A stretch of DNA of 26,705 bases from a virus. Shown here one piece after another: positions 1,130 to 23,249 of this stretch (position 1 is the stretch's first letter; the number at the start of each line of letters is the position of its first letter). The DNA is taken from the IMG/VR virus record IMGVR_UViG_3300035670_001091, positions 1 to 26,705 of that record; one strand, 5' to 3'. A program made the translations under genes and the position numbers. The notes beneath the pieces were generated by a model, which saw only the letters and a list, made by a program, of their open reading frames with translations, was not told the origin of the DNA and did no database searches.

Positions 1130-1774
1130 TTATTTAATTATACTATGTTTAATTGTTCCACTTAGATCATTCAATGCCTTGAATATCTGTGCCATCATCT
1201 CTGATTCAATAGTGCGATCTGTTGCTGTAATCTGAAAATATCCCTCAACACTAAAGCCAGTAAACTTGCCTTCTTTAGCTTTCTCCCAAACATCCTTATC
1301 AGTTACCTTGTAGCTGACAATCCAAGATCCATCATTTGCATCATGGAATCTTTCAGGAGCTGTGAATCCTTTGTCATTATCTATCTGATAGCTATGGATC
1401 ATGTAGATCCCATCAACTACATTGGATGAATTGTGCTCTATGTTTACATTGTTGAAGTTGCCTCTCCTAGCATAGTCATGGATGATGTCCTTGATAGCAG
1501 CCTTTGTGAATACCACATAATACTCCTCATTGCTATCCTCATCATATCTATAGATAGGTGTATCAGCAGAGATAGCCACACCGGTGATTACTTGCTCCTC
1601 ATCATTGAATTGAAATTTCTTAGCTTGTGAGAATGTTTGAAAACTTATCTCATGCGCTGGATCTCTCACTAGTGAATTAAATTCCACAGATGTCTCTGCT
1701 TCATTCAAGTCAATTGAGATTTCATAAATAGGCAATTCTTTCATCATATTAGATAATATGTATTTTTGTTCCAT
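1130..1774 (-). CDS. Prohead protease, XkdF-like (S78_2 type)
   Basis: The protein has 214 residues and should cleave the scaffold and perhaps capsid during head maturation. The match is to the XkdF-like phage serine protease family: a beta-rich N-terminal half, an EH motif at residues 113-114 (NIEHNSSNVVDGIYMI), then GSWIVSYKVTDKDVWEKAKE (residues 149-168) followed by GKFTGFSVEGYF with Ser175. His114 and a serine in the second block are the likely catalytic residues by family analogy. Its start codon (1774-1772) overlaps, in opposite direction, the ATG of the plus-strand sugar-transferase gene. That places its promoter and leader inside that gene; I found no good TAnnTTTG promoter there. The C-terminal 30 residues are variable and helical. 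Confidence 0.82.
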   Translation of the reverse strand: MEQKYILSNMMKELPIYEISIDLNEAETSVEFNSLVRDPAHEISFQTFSQAKKFQFNDEEQVITGVAISADTPIYRYDEDSNEEYYVVFTKAAIKDIIHDYARRGNFNNVNIEHNSSNVVDGIYMIHSYQIDNDKGFTAPERFHDANDGSWIVSYKVTDKDVWEKAKEGKFTGFSVEGYFQITATDRTIESEMMAQIFKALNDLSGTIKHSIIK

Positions 1775-2414
1775 GATTCTAGTCTACCCACATAAACAAG
1801 GCAAGGAAGGCAGCACAATACAGCACTCCATTAACTGGGCCTTAAAGAGATATCCTAATGCAGAAGTCTACATCATTGGTGATCATGTCAGAGGATACAA
1901 CAATCTCATCCCTGATGCAAGGTCATCTGTCAGAGGATGTGACGTCACTCACAAGCTGTTGACATTTGCCCGGCATATTGGCGGCAAGTTCCTATACATG
2001 AATGATGATTTCTTTATTGGTCCTAAATTCAATGAGGATACAGTGATTTCTAATGGCAATCTGATGATTAATGATCTTCATGCACCCACATATCAGGAGG
2101 CTTGTCAAAATACTATGGATGTGCTCAAAGCAATGGGATGTAGCACAATCAATTTTGAATGTCATCAGCCAGTGATGATGTATAGTCAGAAGCTGATTGA
2201 ATTGTTTGACTCAATATCTTGGGATGGACACAATCACTTTGTGAAATCTCTCTATCTTAACTACTACCAGGTACCACATTCACCTGGACAAAATCTGAAG
2301 CTAGGCAGTGACATAAAAAAGGCCCAACAATTGCTGGACCTCTATGGCTCATTCTCATGCTCAGATCAGTGGATGAGAGGGAACGCACAAATTAAATTTC
2401 TTACCACACACTGA
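1773..2414 (+). CDS. Stealth-like sugar-phosphate/glycosyl transferase, the only plus-strand gene
   Basis: The protein is 213 residues if started at ATG 1773 (MILVYPHKQGKEGS); an ATG 15 bases upstream gives a poor extension. It resembles the core of Stealth/GT-like proteins: an N-terminal strand with a YP motif, a middle YIIGDHVRG strand, and KFLYMNDDFFIGPKF (about residues 72-86), whose NDD is the expected metal/nucleotide-sugar motif. A later CHQPVMMYS segment (about 130-138) matches the conserved HxP region. The likely role is transfer of a sugar or sugar-phosphate to a glycan; the acceptor is unknown. Its start overlaps the protease start head to head and its end overlaps the tape-measure stop by 14 bases. 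The opposite-strand terminator lies within its coding sequence. It looks like a gene added to the structural region. Confidence 0.72.
   Translation: MILVYPHKQGKEGSTIQHSINWALKRYPNAEVYIIGDHVRGYNNLIPDARSSVRGCDVTHKLLTFARHIGGKFLYMNDDFFIGPKFNEDTVISNGNLMINDLHAPTYQEACQNTMDVLKAMGCSTINFECHQPVMMYSQKLIELFDSISWDGHNHFVKSLYLNYYQVPHSPGQNLKLGSDIKKAQQLLDLYGSFSCSDQWMRGNAQIKFLTTH
2315..2340 (-). terminator. Rho-independent terminator of the tail operon, inside the plus-strand gene
   Basis: On the minus strand, GGUCCAGC pairs with GUUGGGCC around an AAUU loop and is followed by six U. Two of the eight pairs are G-U in minus-strand RNA but become A-C mismatches in plus-strand RNA, so the element works for minus-strand transcripts. 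It lies about 60 bases beyond the tape-measure stop codon and should end the tail transcript. Confidence 0.8.
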
Positions 2415-11392: not shown

Positions 11393-11910
11393 GCGAAGAA
11401 GTTCAGAAATTCATCACCAGGGAAGGCCCTCTTAAATATCTCTTCCCTCTTCTTATTGGGATTGATGACCTTGCCCCTATCATCCTCTTGGCAGTATTCC
11501 ATCCCCTCCTCAATGTAACAGATAGCCAATGCCTCACATGGTGTTGAGCTGACATCCTCAATGAGCTTCATGTCAATGATCTGACCAGTCTCTATGGCAC
11601 TAAAGTCCTTTTCAAATCTGTATCTCTTGCCTTCAATCTCAATGAATTCAGATGGCTCATTTGTGCTGTATTGTGATAGCATATTCAGAAGCACACTACT
11701 GGCATTCATGATGTCATCAATGTGAATCTTTCTAACCTTGTTGATTGGCAGTCCAGTGAAGATACTGACAAGCTGTGACTGAAAGTCAAGCATATTGATC
11801 AGTGACTTATCTGTCTGCTGGATGAATGGTGCCAACATGAGCCACTTAGTCAATTGGTCCGGTCTACACTCTTGGATTGTCTGTGGATAGTTTACATCAA
11901 TAGTTTTCAT
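11197..11910 (-). CDS. Tail assembly chaperone-like protein, zero-frame product
   Basis: The zero frame gives 237 residues. The N-terminal 175 look like a real domain: an opening beta hairpin and helices (MLDFQSQLVSIFTGLPINKV), then EFIEIEGKRYRFEKDFSAIE, TGQIIDMKLI and CEALAICYIEEGMEYCQEDD. This order resembles tail-chaperone-like proteins of other Bacteroidota phages. The last 62 residues (from Leu176) look unlike a normal protein. The gene overlaps the large terminase by four bases (ATGA) and precedes the tail genes, the usual position of the chaperone. It should help assemble tape measure and tail tube. Confidence 0.6.
   Translation of the reverse strand: MKTIDVNYPQTIQECRPDQLTKWLMLAPFIQQTDKSLINMLDFQSQLVSIFTGLPINKVRKIHIDDIMNASSVLLNMLSQYSTNEPSEFIEIEGKRYRFEKDFSAIETGQIIDMKLIEDVSSTPCEALAICYIEEGMEYCQEDDRGKVINPNKKREEIFKRAFPGDEFLNFFAFFLRESERRSLAILGIQTARLMNQNQTMHQKLLETANGLRGQESSSSWRRSLAKMWTLSRVSHT
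11383..11394 (-). other. Slippery site for -1 frameshifting (nine T)
   Basis: In the zero frame the minus strand reads GCT TTT TTT TTG, so a T_TTT_TTT heptamer is in frame for -1 slippage, and the next T_TTT_TTG is also slippery. The downstream -1 frame stays open for 85 codons. Polymerase slippage on the nine-T run could give the same product. Confidence 0.6.
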
Positions 11911-13109
11911 GCTCTTAATATTTTGTATTGCCCTCTCTTACTGTAGTTCTTTTTACTATGCCATGCCAGTGCTAGTGAGATCACCCCATCATCATGCAGT
12001 CCACTTGGTGCTGAATATTGTACTGACCTGGTATTCGGATTGTAAATATAAGTAAAATTCTCAAGCTCATCTATCAGCCATTGCTCTTCTATTATCTTGA
12101 TGTCTGACTGTTCAAAGGCTAGTGCTAGATCCTCAATGATTATTGGCTTAGTCTTGCTGGTAGTTGTGAAGGGATTGACTAGGTTACGCAGTCTTGATGA
12201 CAGCATCTCATAGAAGATATCCCCTTGATTGTTGACCTCTATCAATGTGACTGCTTGATATTGCTTGATGATGTCTGCTACCTTGTCAATGATCTTGGAC
12301 CACTCATCATGGCGCCACCTTCCCACATAAACCATCTGCCCTCTCTCATTCAGTATGGTCAGCACTGTGTAGTCATCTGCCCTACCTATGTCAAGTCCAG
12401 CATAGCACTTGCCACCTCTCTCCCATGTGCCAGCTGACTGCCTCACGTTCTTGAATAGTCCTGATGCGTTGTCAATGAATTCAGCCATGTATTCCTGGCG
12501 AAAGATATGATCAGGCAGTGACCTCTTTCTCTCCTCCAGCTCTTGTGGTGCAATCATTGGATTATCATAGGATGTGAAGTGGATGTACTTGTATCTGTCA
12601 TCATAGTTAGGCTGCATACACAAGGCATGAAAGTGATTCTTTCCCTTTGGTGTTGAGATGAATATTACCTTCTTACCCTTGACCATGACAGTTGCTGATA
12701 GCACCTCATTCCACAGCTCAGGTCTTGTGAAGGCCATCTCATCCACTACCATAAAGTGGAAGGTATTCCCTCTGATATTGTCGGGCCGTTCACCACTGAA
12801 GAATTCTATTGATGATCCAAACCCAGTCACCTTGAGATCTGATTTGTTGAATTCAAATAGTCCGCTGTTTTTTACTGCTCTCTCAAGCTCTGCGAATACT
12901 TTCTTGCCTTGCTTGTATACTGGTGTAACCCAAGCAATCTGTGAGCCTGGATGATTGATGGCCCAGTACAGAAGCTGATTGATCCCTAGTAAGGTCTTGC
13001 CAAACTGCCTACCAATATTGAGAGCATAGTATTTTTCTGTGCCTTGATTGATAGCATTGTGGATATGCCTCTGATTAGGATGAGGTTTGTAGCCTTTGAT
13101 TGTACTCAT
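11907..13109 (-). CDS. terL: Terminase large subunit
   Basis: The protein has 400 residues with both halves of the packaging motor. The ATPase has Walker A GRQFGKT (residues 33-39), Walker B VVDE (121-124) and a coupling STPKG (152-156). The nuclease half has metal-binding carboxylates in GLDIGRADD (about 238-246), LIEVNNQGD (289-297) and LHDDGVISLA (371-380), the usual D-E-D order. It drives DNA into the head and cuts concatemers. The ATG at 13109 lies only 11 bases after the U run of a terminator and about 80 bases downstream of a promoter. It overlaps the chaperone-like gene by four bases. Confidence 0.96.
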   Translation of the reverse strand: MSTIKGYKPHPNQRHIHNAINQGTEKYYALNIGRQFGKTLLGINQLLYWAINHPGSQIAWVTPVYKQGKKVFAELERAVKNSGLFEFNKSDLKVTGFGSSIEFFSGERPDNIRGNTFHFMVVDEMAFTRPELWNEVLSATVMVKGKKVIFISTPKGKNHFHALCMQPNYDDRYKYIHFTSYDNPMIAPQELEERKRSLPDHIFRQEYMAEFIDNASGLFKNVRQSAGTWERGGKCYAGLDIGRADDYTVLTILNERGQMVYVGRWRHDEWSKIIDKVADIIKQYQAVTLIEVNNQGDIFYEMLSSRLRNLVNPFTTTSKTKPIIIEDLALAFEQSDIKIIEEQWLIDELENFTYIYNPNTRSVQYSAPSGLHDDGVISLALAWHSKKNYSKRGQYKILRA

Positions 13110-13195: not shown

Positions 13196-13225
13196 CAAAT
13201 ATAAGTAATTTTATTCAAAGTCAAA
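13196..13225 (-). promoter_or_regulatory. Bacteroidota-type late promoter
   Basis: The minus strand has TTTG, then 18 bases, then TATATTTG, a full match to the -33 TTTG / -7 TAnnTTTG consensus. The start would be near 13190, at the 3' end of the small terminase gene, so the transcript meets the terminator stem after about 20 bases and its U run after about 65. Confidence 0.65.
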
Positions 13226-13606
13226 GTTGTCAACATTCCTAGTCTCTACTTGCTGACGATCATGCATGCCAAATTTGTTCTTAGCATAGAAGATTCCTTT
13301 GCCTTCATTGGCTACAATATCCTTGCCTAGAGCTATGAATTCACCATCAATATTTTTTATAGTGTGCGATTTGTCTTTGTTCTCCCTCAACCAATCATAC
13401 CATGTTCTCCTTGCAATTAGTTTCATTCCTAATTTCATTGGAATCCAAATCAATAAAAAATAATCTATAGTAGGAATTTGCCTATCAGGTACATCCACTA
13501 CCTTACCACTGCCAGCTACATGTGGTTTAGTTTTATTGAGGCATTCTTGAACATATTCATATCCAAGGTCCTCCAGCTGATCAACTACCTCTTGAGAATA
13601 TGCCAT
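13211..13606 (-). CDS. Terminase small subunit-like protein
   Basis: The protein has 131 residues. ARRTWYDWLRENKDKSHTI (about residues 65-83) and FYAKNKFGMHDRQQVETRN (about 106-124) match the style of phage small terminases, with a helix-turn-helix-like part and the KNKFG motif. Family members bind packaging sites and stimulate the large subunit. It lies just upstream of the large terminase but is separated from it by a promoter and terminator, and its start overlaps the stop of the previous gene (TAATG). Confidence is moderate because small terminases diverge strongly. Confidence 0.62.
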   Translation of the reverse strand: MAYSQEVVDQLEDLGYEYVQECLNKTKPHVAGSGKVVDVPDRQIPTIDYFLLIWIPMKLGMKLIARRTWYDWLRENKDKSHTIKNIDGEFIALGKDIVANEGKGIFYAKNKFGMHDRQQVETRNVDNFDFE

Positions 13607-14052
13607 TATTTCAATTCATTAATTTTAGATTCTGCCCATGTCTTTGCTGCCTTGCCACCCCACAGAAGATATGAGATGTATCCGCAATCTTCAGGTGTAC
13701 CATTTTCATAGTAAGTCTCAGCTCTTGATAGATAGCTTATCATTCTTTTTATCGTGTCAATGGATAGCTTTTCTCTATTGCTGAGCTGCTGTGCTCTGAC
13801 TTTGCCAATCTGCGTGGAGCACCTATTCCCTTGCTTTTCATTTAGCTCTATCCCTCGTCTAGCATTGTTCACTACAGCATCAGGATAGTCATTATAGCTA
13901 TCTTGAAATTCTTGCTTTGCTCTTTGCCATGATGACTTGCACACTGGATAGCGTTGAGTAGATGGATATTCCTCTTTCATCTTCTCATCAGCCATGCATC
14001 TAGTAATGAATTCATTCTCTGATTCTGCTGGTCTTGGTTTAGGTATTGGCAT
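13606..14052 (-). CDS. Conserved phage protein with two recognisable segments
   Basis: The 148-residue protein begins MPIPKPRPAESENEFITRCM, a segment (with VCKSSW at about 38-43) seen at the start of many phage packaging-region proteins. It continues with YNDYPDAVVNNARRGIEL, IGKVRAQQLSNREKLSIDT, TIKRMISYLSRAETY and CGYISYLLWGGKAAKTWAE, a motif series found in various phage head and prohead proteins. No enzyme site is evident. It sits between the amidotransferase and the small terminase, joined to both by TAATG overlaps. The molecular role is unknown; packaging or head assembly is the best guess. Confidence 0.6.
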   Translation of the reverse strand: MPIPKPRPAESENEFITRCMADEKMKEEYPSTQRYPVCKSSWQRAKQEFQDSYNDYPDAVVNNARRGIELNEKQGNRCSTQIGKVRAQQLSNREKLSIDTIKRMISYLSRAETYYENGTPEDCGYISYLLWGGKAAKTWAESKINELK

Positions 14053-15122
14053 TACTTGCAGTATTTAGTGTAAAATGTATAGGGCACTACCTTCATCTTT
14101 GCCAGGATCCATATCAGTGGCCTATAGGCTTTGAAGTTGTACTTCTCATATTTGGCTCTGTCACCATTGCGAAGGTTAATTAGTGCATTTATTTTAGATT
14201 CGTATTCCCCTAGCTTTGTCATGTCAAACTTAGGCTTAACATCGAACAGCTCTCTAGCTTGTTGTTTTGTCAATCTGCCTGATCTGACTTGTGCAGAAAG
14301 GTATACTATTCTCTTGTCAATGCCAAATTTATTAGGCAATAGAAAGCTCCCTACAAACTCAGTGTAAACATTCTCACAATGCTTGCCTCCATAGTCTTGC
14401 CATTGAATCAGTCGTTTCATTTCAAGCTCCATTGTCTCTCTATCAAATCCATAATGGAATGGCCTTACATTCTTGATTCCCTTCAGTGCATAGTACAGTT
14501 GATCCTTGAATGTGAATAGTGGATAATTAGTCAGCTCTGCTTGTGTATATGCCTTGTAGACTGATCTGATGTACTTGGCATCCATGTATGTCCATGATGC
14601 TGGTGTTGATCCCTCAGTTCTGAAGTCATGACCATTGAGAATGTACTTGATCTTGTACTTATGTGCAGTATCGTACATCAGCTTTGTCATGGCAATATCA
14701 TTGGGGATATCTGCATCAGGTAGTCCAGCGTAAAGGAATGCTTCATTGAGTTTGTCATATTCTGACTTATTCACCTGGTAGGTGATTGCATCCACATTCA
14801 GCTTCTTGATAAGCTGCTGCATATTGTGCACAGCTTGTGGTGCATTCCAGTTGTTATCGAAGTGGATCACCAATGGCTTGAGGCCCCAATAACGCACAGC
14901 AGTGTACAGTAACACTGAACTGTCAAGACCTCCACTGATGCCCATGATGCAATCGTATTTGTCACCATATCCATGTACTCTGATCTTGTTGAGCATATCA
15001 TGCAGTCCTTGTGGATCTGATTGCTTCTGTAGCTCATCATGGAGATCACAATAGTTGCATTGCTTATTGTTTATGACAGCGAAGTCAGAAGTGAATAGGC
15101 ATCTTTTACATTCTTTTTTCAT
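14052..15122 (-). CDS. N-acetyl sugar amidotransferase (WbpG/PseA-like)
   Basis: The protein has 356 residues. The N-terminus has a four-cysteine zinc site (C5, C8, C22, C25: CKRC...CNYC) followed by an ATP-pyrophosphatase loop SGGLDSS (residues 63-69) and NGHDFRTEGSTP (163-174), the layout of N-acetyl sugar amidotransferases in the PP-loop family. These enzymes activate a sugar carboxyl or carbonyl group with ATP and transfer ammonia to it, giving amidino or amino sugars in LPS and flagellar glycans. They usually work with a glutaminase (HisH-like) subunit that I do not see here. Its start overlaps the methyltransferase stop (ATGA). Transfer from a host glycan cluster is likely. Confidence 0.85.
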   Translation of the reverse strand: MKKECKRCLFTSDFAVINNKQCNYCDLHDELQKQSDPQGLHDMLNKIRVHGYGDKYDCIMGISGGLDSSVLLYTAVRYWGLKPLVIHFDNNWNAPQAVHNMQQLIKKLNVDAITYQVNKSEYDKLNEAFLYAGLPDADIPNDIAMTKLMYDTAHKYKIKYILNGHDFRTEGSTPASWTYMDAKYIRSVYKAYTQAELTNYPLFTFKDQLYYALKGIKNVRPFHYGFDRETMELEMKRLIQWQDYGGKHCENVYTEFVGSFLLPNKFGIDKRIVYLSAQVRSGRLTKQQARELFDVKPKFDMTKLGEYESKINALINLRNGDRAKYEKYNFKAYRPLIWILAKMKVVPYTFYTKYCK

Positions 15123-15658
15123 GTAATAATTATTTGAAAATAGCTTTCGTTTATATTGACCATGTGTATATTATAATCAGCAAAGTCTATAGGTTTAATA
15201 TTGTACCAAATATGTTCAGGATCACAATCTTCAGGCTCATCCAGTGGCAAAGATAACACAAGATATTTACAATGCTTCTTGCATTTGTCAATCACCTCAA
15301 ATGGATTCTCAAGATGCTCTAGTGTTTCTGCAATGATGATCACATCGTATTGACTGGATGGCTCATCTGTTCTGATATCTAGCAGCTGAATATGATCCGC
15401 TTTGTCAGCTGCTTTGTTGACAGCTATCATTGAGAAGTCTGATGCAGTATATATGCAATCAAACTGATTCTTGATATATTCAGCTCCTATGCCAGTGCCA
15501 CATCCTATCTCTAGGATAGTATTGAATTTTATCTGTTTTAGGATCTCAGACAGTTGCTCATATATTATCAGCCTATCCTCCTCCACATCAACACCAGCAT
15601 AGTAGCCATCCCAAAATACCATGCTGTTGGTGTTTATTTTATCCTTTACTCTGCGCAT
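15119..15658 (-). CDS. SAM-dependent class I methyltransferase
   Basis: The protein has 179 residues. Motif I is ILEIGCGTGIGAEYIKNQF (about residues 48-66), followed by TASDFSMIAVNKA (the acidic residue of the second strand) and QYDVIIIAETLEHLENPFE (about 107-125), which fit a Rossmann-fold methyltransferase. The short C-terminus suggests a small-molecule or sugar substrate rather than DNA; no DNA-methylase DPPY motif is present. It is flanked by a glycosyltransferase and a sugar amidotransferase with overlapping ends, so sugar methylation is the most likely job. The start overlaps the stop of the glycosyltransferase by 13 bases. Confidence 0.8.
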   Translation of the reverse strand: MRRVKDKINTNSMVFWDGYYAGVDVEEDRLIIYEQLSEILKQIKFNTILEIGCGTGIGAEYIKNQFDCIYTASDFSMIAVNKAADKADHIQLLDIRTDEPSSQYDVIIIAETLEHLENPFEVIDKCKKHCKYLVLSLPLDEPEDCDPEHIWYNIKPIDFADYNIHMVNINESYFQIIIT

Positions 15659-16365
15659 AGTTCATTTTGTAAATCATATATTTCAGGGAATGATTGAAGG
15701 AATGCAATCTGCTCTTTGCCGGTGATGCGTTCACTCTTTAACTTGCCAGTCCAATGATCCTTAAATTTATGTTTATTCTCCCACTTATCTGTACTGATTG
15801 ACAAGAATTGTATCTCATCTGCATCGAATATACCAATGGATGCATCACTGATGATTGCTCTGAGCCACATGGCCCAATCAAGTCCGCTGTTCAATCTCTT
15901 ATCAAATGGCTGCCAGTTTATCTTGTCAAGGAATCTATTTGATAGCATTCTGCCAATACCTATAGGCTCACAGGATCTTGGTCCTTTGCCGTATCCAGTC
16001 CAGTTGACAAGTCTGATCTTATCATCCACATCAATGAAATGACATCCTAGCTTTCCCACCATGTCAAACTCTTTGAGCTTATCTTCAGCCTCCTTGATGT
16101 AATTATCTGACACCCAATCAGAAGAGCCAACAAACAGCACCCCAGTAGGATTGTATTTCTTGGCTGCCATGAATCCAGCATTCCACTTCGCACCTAGTGG
16201 ATCATTGGATATTTCTATCCACTCGGCACCTAGGTTAATGCATAGCTCTTTGTCTTCAGGATCATGGCCCATGCATATTACTTTAACTCCAGCCTTCTGA
16301 AGTCTTGTGATTGTGATCTTTAGCAGTGGCCTTCTGCCATTCACTGGAATAGGAGCTACAATCAT
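15646..16365 (-). CDS. GT-A-type glycosyltransferase
   Basis: The protein has 239 residues. It starts MIVAPIPVNGRRPLLKITIT, the opening of a nucleotide-sugar fold, and has NDPLGAKWNAGFMAAKK (about residues 54-70) and FVGSSDWVSDNYI (about 78-90). GSSDW stands where the usual DxD metal motif would be, as in a subset of family-2-like proteins. The C-terminal half is variable, including WAMWLRAIISDASIGIFDAD. The role is sugar transfer to an unknown acceptor. It overlaps the SAP-domain gene by four bases upstream and the methyltransferase by 13 downstream, so these genes form one unit. Confidence 0.72.
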   Translation of the reverse strand: MIVAPIPVNGRRPLLKITITRLQKAGVKVICMGHDPEDKELCINLGAEWIEISNDPLGAKWNAGFMAAKKYNPTGVLFVGSSDWVSDNYIKEAEDKLKEFDMVGKLGCHFIDVDDKIRLVNWTGYGKGPRSCEPIGIGRMLSNRFLDKINWQPFDKRLNSGLDWAMWLRAIISDASIGIFDADEIQFLSISTDKWENKHKFKDHWTGKLKSERITGKEQIAFLQSFPEIYDLQNELCAE

Positions 16366-16715
16366 GACTTCAATGCATTGATTAGATCAGCTTTCTTTGG
16401 TGCTGCTCCTAAGTTTAGTCCTCTATCTTTTGCCAGTGCCTTCATATCATTGTAGCTCATGCTCTCATAGTTATATTGTTTTGTTCCAATAAACTGAATC
16501 TTAGCTGGTTTGATTTCTGTGTTGATGTTGGATTGAATGTGGGCAGACAAGTCTCTCATTGCATTGCGTAGGCATGTACCACATCTTTTGTTGAGCACTA
16601 TGTTCTTATTTAACTTGAGCCATATAGCTAGCTCTTCTTTGAGCTCTTCATTCAGTGCAAAGGATCTAGTCTTCATAAATCTCTGCACCTGGCTCATCAG
16701 CTCATTTGATATCAT
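16362..16715 (-). CDS. Small protein with C-terminal SAP/HeH-like domain
   Basis: The 117-residue protein has a helical N-terminus, a possible metal-binding CGTC pair (about residues 45-48) and a C-terminal YESMSYNDMKALAKDRGLNL followed by GAAPKKADLINALKS (about 102-117). This helix-extension-helix layout is typical of SAP-type nucleic-acid binding domains. Its start overlaps the 44-residue gene upstream (ATGA) and its stop overlaps the glycosyltransferase. Such proteins occur near phage head and packaging genes. A link to glycan synthesis is only by position. Confidence 0.6.
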   Translation of the reverse strand: MISNELMSQVQRFMKTRSFALNEELKEELAIWLKLNKNIVLNKRCGTCLRNAMRDLSAHIQSNINTEIKPAKIQFIGTKQYNYESMSYNDMKALAKDRGLNLGAAPKKADLINALKS

Positions 16716-20837: not shown

Positions 20838-21024
20838 AGATTCTATCTAGTGTTAATATTTTACCTGGTGCCATAGTTGTATCTCTTGCCCAGTCTTCTG
20901 CGTTTACAAATGTAAATTTATGCTGTTCAGCTGGCTCTACTTTCTTCTGCTCTGACAATTTACTGATGAATAGAGCAAAGATTGCAGACCAAGCTAGGAT
21001 CATGATGATTGATATCTGTTTCAT
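20821..21024 (-). CDS. Small protein with N-terminal membrane anchor (67 residues)
   Basis: The protein starts with a basic residue and a hydrophobic helix (MKQISIIMILAWSAIFALFI), followed by a polar domain (QKKVEPAEQHKFTFVNAEDW, RDTTMAPGKILTLDRIYEQGK). No lipoprotein box is evident. It overlaps the PrimPol gene by four bases (ATGA) and the VRR-NUC gene by 17 bases. The function is unknown; an anchor for replication proteins at the membrane is a speculation. Confidence 0.6.
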   Translation of the reverse strand: MKQISIIMILAWSAIFALFISKLSEQKKVEPAEQHKFTFVNAEDWARDTTMAPGKILTLDRIYEQGK

Positions 21025-23249
21025 TCTTTCTCTAGTTTTTTAACCCAGTTCTGAATTGTTCTCCTGGATACCTCAAGGATCTCAGATGCTGTTGTTCTGT
21101 TAATATTTGGATTTGCTTTATACATGGCCATGAATTGATCATGAGTATTTGATCCAGCTGATCTTGCTATCTGCTTGAGATTGTTTTTCTCTTTTACATC
21201 TCTTTTTACTAACTTACTCATGTTGATAAAATAATCAGATAGCTTTTCAGCTCTCAATAGACTATCAGTTTTTACTATCCCCATCTTGATAGAGTCATCA
21301 AATGCTGACCAAATTGTGTTGATGATCAATGCGAATCTTGGGATGTAGCTCTTTTGTTTAGGCAACATTGATTTCATGTACTCATTCTCATCATCTGAAT
21401 TCTGAATATCAGTAATCTGATCATGGATCCGTATCCATTCAGCTACTGCCTTGCTTTCAAACTTAGATACTGTTGATTCAATCTCACCTTTGTCATTAAA
21501 TTTCAATAGATTGCGCTGTATAGAATCTCTAAAGTTTATGACAAAGGATCTGTACCATTCAATAATATCCTCTTCAATATGCTTGTTATTATAGTGATTT
21601 ACATTTAGCTCAGGATAACTGATGAGAATCCTATCCACAAATCCATTCTCTTTATTGTCACCAGTAGTGAAGTCCTCAAATACTGATGGCTGTATACCGC
21701 CTAGCACTGGAATGAATGGCTTGTCAACAAATGCACTCTTGGATGTTTTACGATTGAGAGATATGCTAGTACCTGACCATGATGATAGCCAAAACTCAAG
21801 ATCAGATCCTTGTCTGTATTTATTCATGTCCTTAAACCATCCAGCTAGTTCATCCTTGAATATTCCTACAGCATTTGGATTCTGCTCATGTAGGTCCACA
21901 AGAGCTTCAAGAGTAATATCACCAACAAGAAACTGCTTGCTAACTGGCTTTGTTATCTCCTCAGCATATTGCTTTTCTTTCTTATCCAGTGCCTCATATT
22001 CTCTCCACTTGGCATATTGCTTCACATATTCTTTCTGCTCTCTGACATTTACCTCTCTAAGTGGGAATATCATCTGATTGATAGATGGCGTTTTTCCTAT
22101 ACCTGGTTTACCAACTATTGCAATCCATACTGTTGCAATCTCTTGCCATCCTGGCTTGACTTCAATCCTAGCAGAATTACCAATGATAACTGATGCCATC
22201 CAAATGAAAGCTGATCCCATGTAATCAATTGACAAACCTAATGTATTGGCTGACTCAATGATGTACTGCTGGATCTCATGAGGAAAGATATCAAGAGGGA
22301 ATTGTATCCTATCAATCTGTACTTCAGGCAGCTCATTCTTAAAGTCTACTTTAGGAATCTTCCTGGTACCATATCCTTGAGAATAGATATCAGATGCTGC
22401 CTTTGTCATATCACCATTGTGATACTTATAGGCATAGATTGCAAATGGTGACAGCAGCTGCTCATTAGGATACAATGTGCCAGTGCTGAATAGATACATG
22501 CATCCACTATCCTTGTAGACATATCCTGAATGTGGTGATGTCGCACCATGTCTTTTGATAATGTAGTTTGTGGATGTATTCCTTACAATTGTAAACTCAT
22601 CACTGATTAGGTCCATTGCTGAATGTCTCGAGTTATAGTCAACCCAAGGTGTGATATCATTCTCTGATGTGGACTTGTATTCACTTTTCTTAGGAGCATC
22701 AATCTTGACATTATCAATGTGATTGAATGTCTTTGATATGGACCAAATGATATCCCTCTCTTGTTCACTGATGTAGTCAATCTCATGATAGCTTTTAGAA
22801 TACAAAAAATTATCATATAGCACCACCATTCCTCCAGTGCCTCTTGATTCAATGATAGCCTCTTTCTGTCCTTTTAATCTAGCTATTTTTGTATTGCCAG
22901 CTGGAAACTTGCATTTGTACAAAATATGATATCCAGCATTCTTTGTCTTGGCAATTACTACCTTATCAGCAAAGTCCTCAATATTATCATTGATAAAAGA
23001 TAGGTATTCTTTCCACCATTCTTTCTGCTCTTGCAGTCCTACAATGACCTTGAGATCAACATCAATGCATTCCACATCATTAACACCAGTGACTAATCCA
23101 TACAATGGTGAATCCAATTGCTCCACCTCATCAGCTGATCTTGCCTTTGTTTGGTTTACCTTCCATAATCCTATTGGACTTTTATCTTGGTCCACTGGTA
23201 TTATTGAATAACCAAGTGAGGCTAATTTTCTTAGATATGATTTAGTCAT
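21021..23249 (-). CDS. PrimPol-DUF3987 primase/helicase
   Basis: The protein has 742 residues. The N-terminal PrimPol domain has a D63-V-D65 metal pair in ECIDVDLKV, H108 in GYHILYK and R136 in IESRGTGGMVVLYDNF. The second half (about 320-690) is a DUF3987-type ATPase with Walker A GKPGIGKT (380-387) and a Walker B-like FKDELAGW (464-471). The C-terminal 35 residues form a helix-turn-helix (RTTASEILEVSRRTIQNWVK). The likely role is primer synthesis and unwinding for phage replication. It follows the repeat-rich candidate origin, and a 25-residue leader ORF overlaps its start by four bases. Confidence 0.85.
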   Translation of the reverse strand: MTKSYLRKLASLGYSIIPVDQDKSPIGLWKVNQTKARSADEVEQLDSPLYGLVTGVNDVECIDVDLKVIVGLQEQKEWWKEYLSFINDNIEDFADKVVIAKTKNAGYHILYKCKFPAGNTKIARLKGQKEAIIESRGTGGMVVLYDNFLYSKSYHEIDYISEQERDIIWSISKTFNHIDNVKIDAPKKSEYKSTSENDITPWVDYNSRHSAMDLISDEFTIVRNTSTNYIIKRHGATSPHSGYVYKDSGCMYLFSTGTLYPNEQLLSPFAIYAYKYHNGDMTKAASDIYSQGYGTRKIPKVDFKNELPEVQIDRIQFPLDIFPHEIQQYIIESANTLGLSIDYMGSAFIWMASVIIGNSARIEVKPGWQEIATVWIAIVGKPGIGKTPSINQMIFPLREVNVREQKEYVKQYAKWREYEALDKKEKQYAEEITKPVSKQFLVGDITLEALVDLHEQNPNAVGIFKDELAGWFKDMNKYRQGSDLEFWLSSWSGTSISLNRKTSKSAFVDKPFIPVLGGIQPSVFEDFTTGDNKENGFVDRILISYPELNVNHYNNKHIEEDIIEWYRSFVINFRDSIQRNLLKFNDKGEIESTVSKFESKAVAEWIRIHDQITDIQNSDDENEYMKSMLPKQKSYIPRFALIINTIWSAFDDSIKMGIVKTDSLLRAEKLSDYFINMSKLVKRDVKEKNNLKQIARSAGSNTHDQFMAMYKANPNINRTTASEILEVSRRTIQNWVKKLEKE

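Follow-up and report, generated by a model that had tools for sequence, protein, structure and literature searches.

The window, a 26,705-base IMG/VR virus record analysed over its whole length, is a fragment of a phage genome in which a minus-strand capsid gene, protease, tape measure, tail proteins, TerL, a small group of sugar-related genes (hereafter the cassette), replication genes and a peptidase follow one another. Its longest sampled relatives span ~28–34 kb, and the lineage consists of small phages with genomes of ~32 kb. The three cassette ORFs that a sequence-only reading had described as an amidotransferase (AT), a methyltransferase (MT) and a glycosyltransferase (GT) were recovered on the minus strand (Table 1), AT and MT overlapping by 4 bp and MT and GT by 13 bp. 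Shine-Dalgarno-like sites are rare among the genes and the upstream regions are A-rich; together with a BT4734-like primase domain found in one relative, these features weakly suggest a Bacteroidota host. A TerL search for a prophage or host gave no match in 396 Bacteroidota genomes, a sample without a positive control. Outside the cassette, the primase-helicase gene (window 21021-23249; L236:9909-12284) is swapped for a BT4734/DUF5906-type gene in some relatives, and a DNA N6/N4 methylase (L236:12931-13581) occurs in relatives G313, G302 and G300 and is absent from the window.

Table 1. Positions of the features discussed, numbered along the window.
Feature	Positions	Strand	Description	Evidence
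ST	1758..2414	+	Stealth-like protein with YMNDDFFI; core gene, independent of the cassette	
TerL	11907..13109	-	Terminase large subunit; basis of the lineage tree	PF03237 2.2e-20; phrog_2 3.5e-46
g131	13211..13606	-	Conserved; flanks the cassette site downstream; putatively in the position of the small terminase subunit	
g148	13606..14052	-	148 aa; directly downstream of AT, which it often, not always, accompanies	phrog_2859 4.2e-11
AT	14052..15122	-	356 aa; N-acetyl sugar amidotransferase-like (NASAT/WbuX/WbpG)	TIGR03573 profile match
MT	15119..15658	-	179 aa; class I SAM methyltransferase in the variable slot between GT and AT	PF13489 match
GT	15646..16365	-	239 aa; predicted GT-A-fold glycosyltransferase	AlphaFold model and Foldseek
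SAP	16362..16715	-	117 aa; SAP-domain-like small protein; conserved; flanks the cassette site upstream	PF02037 0.0026, subthreshold

Enzymes of the cassette

The assignment of AT as a WbpG/PseA-like amidotransferase was borne out by a profile match of residues 3–294 to TIGR03573 (WbuX; 2.4e-51, 175.2 bits), which lies under the curated cut-off of 203.2 bits, so that we call AT NASAT-like and stop short of assigning it to WbuX. Its PP-loop (SGGLDSS, residues 63–69) appears as SGGxDSS in 17 of 17 aligned phage ATs, and the zinc-site cysteines C5, C8, C22 and C25 are invariant across these 17 sequences, the relatives being 70–91% identical. The published NASAT signature consists of SGGXDS plus CXXCXn[GN]XCXXC (PMC10607449). 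At the [GN] position of the tetracysteine motif the phage ATs carry K, H or another residue, with all four cysteines kept, and the altered [GN]XC element sits near a 3-residue deletion. Phage ATs and 20 cellular NASATs have 41 alignment columns in common, among them the PP-loop and the KFxxDxR region; the match to PDB 8wex was weak. The nearest cellular relatives share 33–39% identity with AT over 260–375 residues, and the phage ATs fall together in a clade separated by a long branch (1.47 changes per site) from the sampled cellular NASATs, which argues for an old acquisition; a recent theft from a host is not supported by this single distant clade. At two loci (L093 and L097) AT is seemingly split over two ORFs, possibly through frameshifts or assembly errors. 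As a NASAT-like enzyme, AT would be expected to yield an acetamidino sugar.

MT, likewise read earlier as a small class I methyltransferase, matched Methyltransf_23 (PF13489) at 1.6e-13, scoring 51 bits against a cut-off of 27, and contains motif I as EIGCGTG. A role in a defence system was considered and rejected, PADLOC having returned just a generic methyltransferase-domain match for this protein.

Family profile searches with GT gave no match. Its AlphaFold model (pLDDT 92.4) was compared with the PDB using Foldseek, and the top matches were GT-A enzymes (6p61, AvpGT and RmlT), with nucleotidyltransferases of the same fold matching as well; GT is thus predicted by modelling to have the GT-A fold, as proposed from sequence. 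The GSSDW motif noted earlier occupies residues 80–84 and is invariant in 19 aligned GTs. Since AT-less homologues from the cassette site (L252 and L326) show GSDDW or GSDDY at this position, the SSD of GT would lie where a metal-binding motif is expected. We found no match to GT in 297 Bacteroidota genomes, again a sample without a positive control.

Order, distribution and exchange at the cassette site

Relatives share the gene order sigma-like, SAP, GT, slot, AT, (g148), g131 and TerL. From the SAP side towards the terminase, SAP, GT, slot, AT and g148 form a single chain of overlapping genes, and at almost every locus adjacent cassette genes overlap or abut, suggesting one transcript with the downstream packaging genes. 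Hydropathy analysis revealed no membrane segment in any cassette protein; the cassette therefore encodes no flippase or membrane-bound step.

Scans for relatives confirmed at least 122 viral sequences for AT, of which 80 were kept, and 63 for GT; these are not independent phages, because many of the contigs are fragments, some of them overlapping, and some are near-copies. GT and AT co-occur strictly in 25 records, both being present in 10 and neither in the other 15. Neither AT, GT, the Stealth-like gene nor the lineage capsid was found in 50,697 phage records, a cellular NASAT query also found nothing there, and no relatives of the AT locus were found among cultured phages. The carriers of the cassette are a widespread group of uncultured freshwater phages.

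The slot between GT and AT is the variable part of the site. Over the sampled loci, some of them overlapping, it holds a GT-B protein in 46 cases and MT in 34, and is empty in 23; the model of the GT-B protein (pLDDT 84) matches GT4-type enzymes. A tree of 70 terminases (TerL), obtained by a quick search, requires at least 22 changes of slot state and 4 of AT presence, and some phages with near-identical TerL proteins differ in slot content. Where AT is missing, the site can contain a GT4-like gene, a methyltransferase and a GT2 gene (G302 and G303) or related glycosyltransferase/methyltransferase sets; at some sites it is empty, which indicates that the lineage can do without the cassette. 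One such AT-less site (L326:1-4563) holds a hexapeptide (LpxA-like) acyltransferase next to the GT with GSDDY.

By a simple pairwise estimate, median dN/dS is 0.059 for AT, 0.061 for the capsid, 0.037 for TerL, 0.155 for GT, 0.160 for MT and 0.129 for the GT-B slot gene. Purifying selection acts strongly on AT, at the same level as on the capsid. With at least 122 viral AT relatives, a conserved gene order and dN/dS of 0.06–0.16, the AT/MT/GT group stands well beyond chance. We consider its best reading to be a soluble, swappable glycosylation cassette at a fixed site between the SAP gene and TerL.

The Stealth-like gene (ST), which the sequence-only reading had placed at 1773 and tentatively in the same pathway, does exist, although position 1773 is an internal ATG of an ORF that begins upstream (Table 1). 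Within the head/tail module it is encoded on the opposite strand, between the protease and the tape measure. Stealth_CR2 was matched weakly by 10 of 20 family members (best 3.5e-6; the window copy, at 0.045, is subthreshold) and Stealth_CR4 weakly by one; CR1 and CR3 were not found in the 20-member family, and a PDB sequence search with the family gave no match. ST is kept in every relative compared, down to ~30% identity, including all that lack AT and GT. As a core gene of AT-bearing and AT-less members alike, it provides no evidence for a part in the cassette pathway, and we rejected it as a member.

Ammonia source and NASATs elsewhere

Cellular AT homologues sit in surface-polysaccharide clusters with Wzx/Wzy-like, GT and HisH/HisF genes. 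HisH- and/or HisF-like genes, recognised by short motifs and sequence starts, lie near NASAT in most of the cellular neighbourhoods examined. It had been proposed to look for a HisH-like glutaminase elsewhere in the phage genome; searches for the ammonia suppliers HisH and HisF (PF00117, PF00977) gave no match in 10 phage records, with all controls positive. The phage AT must therefore use free ammonia, borrow HisH/HisF from the host or carry out another reaction, and amidation by AT is not assured. NASAT matches occurred in 34 of 297 sampled Bacteroidota genomes.

A scan with cellular NASATs as queries recovered large marine virus contigs of 23–231 kb (L382, L383, L384, L385 and L387) that carry sugar clusters of HisH, HisF, NASAT and an aminotransferase (DegT). 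PhoH lies near the cluster in L387, with similar genes in L383 and L385. Three further contigs (L386, L388 and L389) have NASAT with no HisH/HisF nearby. In one of them, an unrelated phage contig (L386:1065-7128), NASAT lies between a major head protein and a head-tail connector, directly behind the gene for a GT41 (OGT-like)/hexapeptide fusion, with two small proteins also encoded in this stretch. GT41 enzymes typically glycosylate proteins, and this arrangement thus supports, by analogy only, a virion-protein acceptor.

Candidate acceptors and comparison with known systems

The proposal that the phage encodes sugar modification and glycosyl transfer holds without the Stealth-like gene. Since an interchangeable set of sugar enzymes, a NASAT-like one among them, adjoins the packaging genes, these phages probably produce and exchange an unusual sugar coating, borne either by the virions or by the host. 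AT would take an N-acetylated host sugar, most likely a nucleotide sugar, and activate its acetamido oxygen with ATP at the PP-loop; ammonia, free or from host enzymes, would then replace the oxygen to give an acetamidino sugar. GT would transfer this sugar, or another one later modified by AT, to the acceptor. The middle gene would finish the glycan, MT by methylating it or the GT-B enzyme by adding a sugar, with nothing added where the slot is empty. The acceptor would most likely be a virion protein modified in the cytosol. Recombination would exchange the site lying between SAP and TerL, leaving closely related phages with different glycans. Overall, we lean slightly towards a phage-encoded soluble glycosylation cassette that is probably co-expressed with the terminase and structural genes and most likely acts on a virion protein. 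Among acceptors considered singly, a virion protein is favoured at about even chances, a host surface glycan comes next and DNA appears unlikely. No structural gene stood out in 11 genomes as tracking the cassette and hence as a candidate acceptor.

The main competitor to a virion acceptor, which we judge unlikely while taking it seriously, is that the target during infection is a glycan of the host surface, be it an LPS O-chain, capsule or S-layer glycan: AT would shift the host nucleotide-sugar pool, GT and MT would alter the finished chain, and this would stop competing phages from adsorbing, or progeny from adsorbing to debris, as with serotype-converting phages. The surface-polysaccharide clusters around cellular NASATs, with their Wzx/Wzy-like, GT and HisH/HisF genes, would equally suit such LPS or capsule modification, the rapid slot swapping resembles serotype switching, and AT could borrow HisH/HisF if the host makes such sugars, as the NASAT matches among Bacteroidota genomes would allow. 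However, the cassette contains no membrane protein, flippase, polymerase or undecaprenyl-linked GT and is linked to terminase and structural genes, and no integrase was seen among the Pfam matches of relative G313, serotype conversion being mostly a trait of temperate phages. The soluble proteins, the packaging and structural linkage and the L386 contig favour the virion over the host surface, though not decisively. A block to superinfection, as suggested earlier, is possible.

A drift of the phage NASAT to another PP-loop reaction, such as peptide or small-molecule amidation, and a phage-specific small molecule, not a glycan, as the product of GT and MT, would fit the long branch of the phage clade, the missing HisH/HisF and the altered [GN]XC motif. 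We nevertheless regard it as improbable, given the 41 kept residues that include the PP-loop and KFxxDxR region, the constant placement of AT beside one or two glycosyltransferases and the glycosyltransferase/methyltransferase nature of the alternative cassettes. Less probable still, and in our view barely tenable, is DNA hypermodification, in which phage DNA would be protected by a modified base that GT glycosylates and whose sugar AT or MT decorates. DNA glycosylation by phage glycosyltransferases is known (T4), and the cassette does lie upstream of the terminase. The sequence-only reading had already considered DNA modification less likely, and the Pfam matches of the G313 proteome agree, with no hydroxymethylase, thymidylate-synthase homologue, kinase or TET/JBP enzyme among them; in addition, the cellular AT relatives sit in surface-glycan clusters, and relatives with homologous replication genes lack the cassette.

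Returning to a virion acceptor, we tentatively suggest a more specific form, somewhat short of an even bet, in which a partnerless phage NASAT decorates the virion with acetamidino-sugar glycans and the coat is diversified by cassette exchange between two fixed borders, as a possible viral counterpart of bacterial O-serotype switching. If true, phages of ~32 kb would carry and constantly exchange sugar-coat genes, including an amidotransferase of a type absent from 50,697 phage records. These abundant freshwater phages would then provide a concrete model of how virion glycans vary, and a natural test of NASAT function in the absence of HisH/HisF.

NASAT is known so far from bacterial surface polysaccharides, and our literature search found no paper on a phage NASAT. 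The phage AT resembles the NASAT/WbpG-WbuX family (TIGR03573; LpNASAT, PDB 8WEX, PMC10607449) in its SGGxDS PP-loop, tetracysteine, KFxxDxR and length. It differs in falling below the family cut-off, forming a separate long-branch clade, having lost [GN]XC and lacking HisH/HisF partner genes, and in lying within a phage packaging/structural operon. The passage of PMC11256854 that cites Freeman et al. 2023 reports virion glycosylation in mycobacteriophages Che8 and Rita, which likewise have phage glycosyltransferases; the virion acceptor reported there is proposed here. Relative to what that source describes, the present phages belong to a different group and have an amidotransferase, a site that is a swapped cassette and a putative acceptor. 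All cassette proteins here are soluble and no integrase was seen in the Pfam matches of G313. In contrast, gtr cassettes encode a membrane flippase and transferases in temperate phages. They are alike as phage genes that vary a surface glycan (serotype-converting phages; PMC2629481, PMC3851460). The marine virus contigs (L382–L385 and L387) also place NASAT in a virus genome; their nucleotide-sugar pathway is fuller and includes HisH and HisF, whereas the window phage has a minimal set that would rely on its host.
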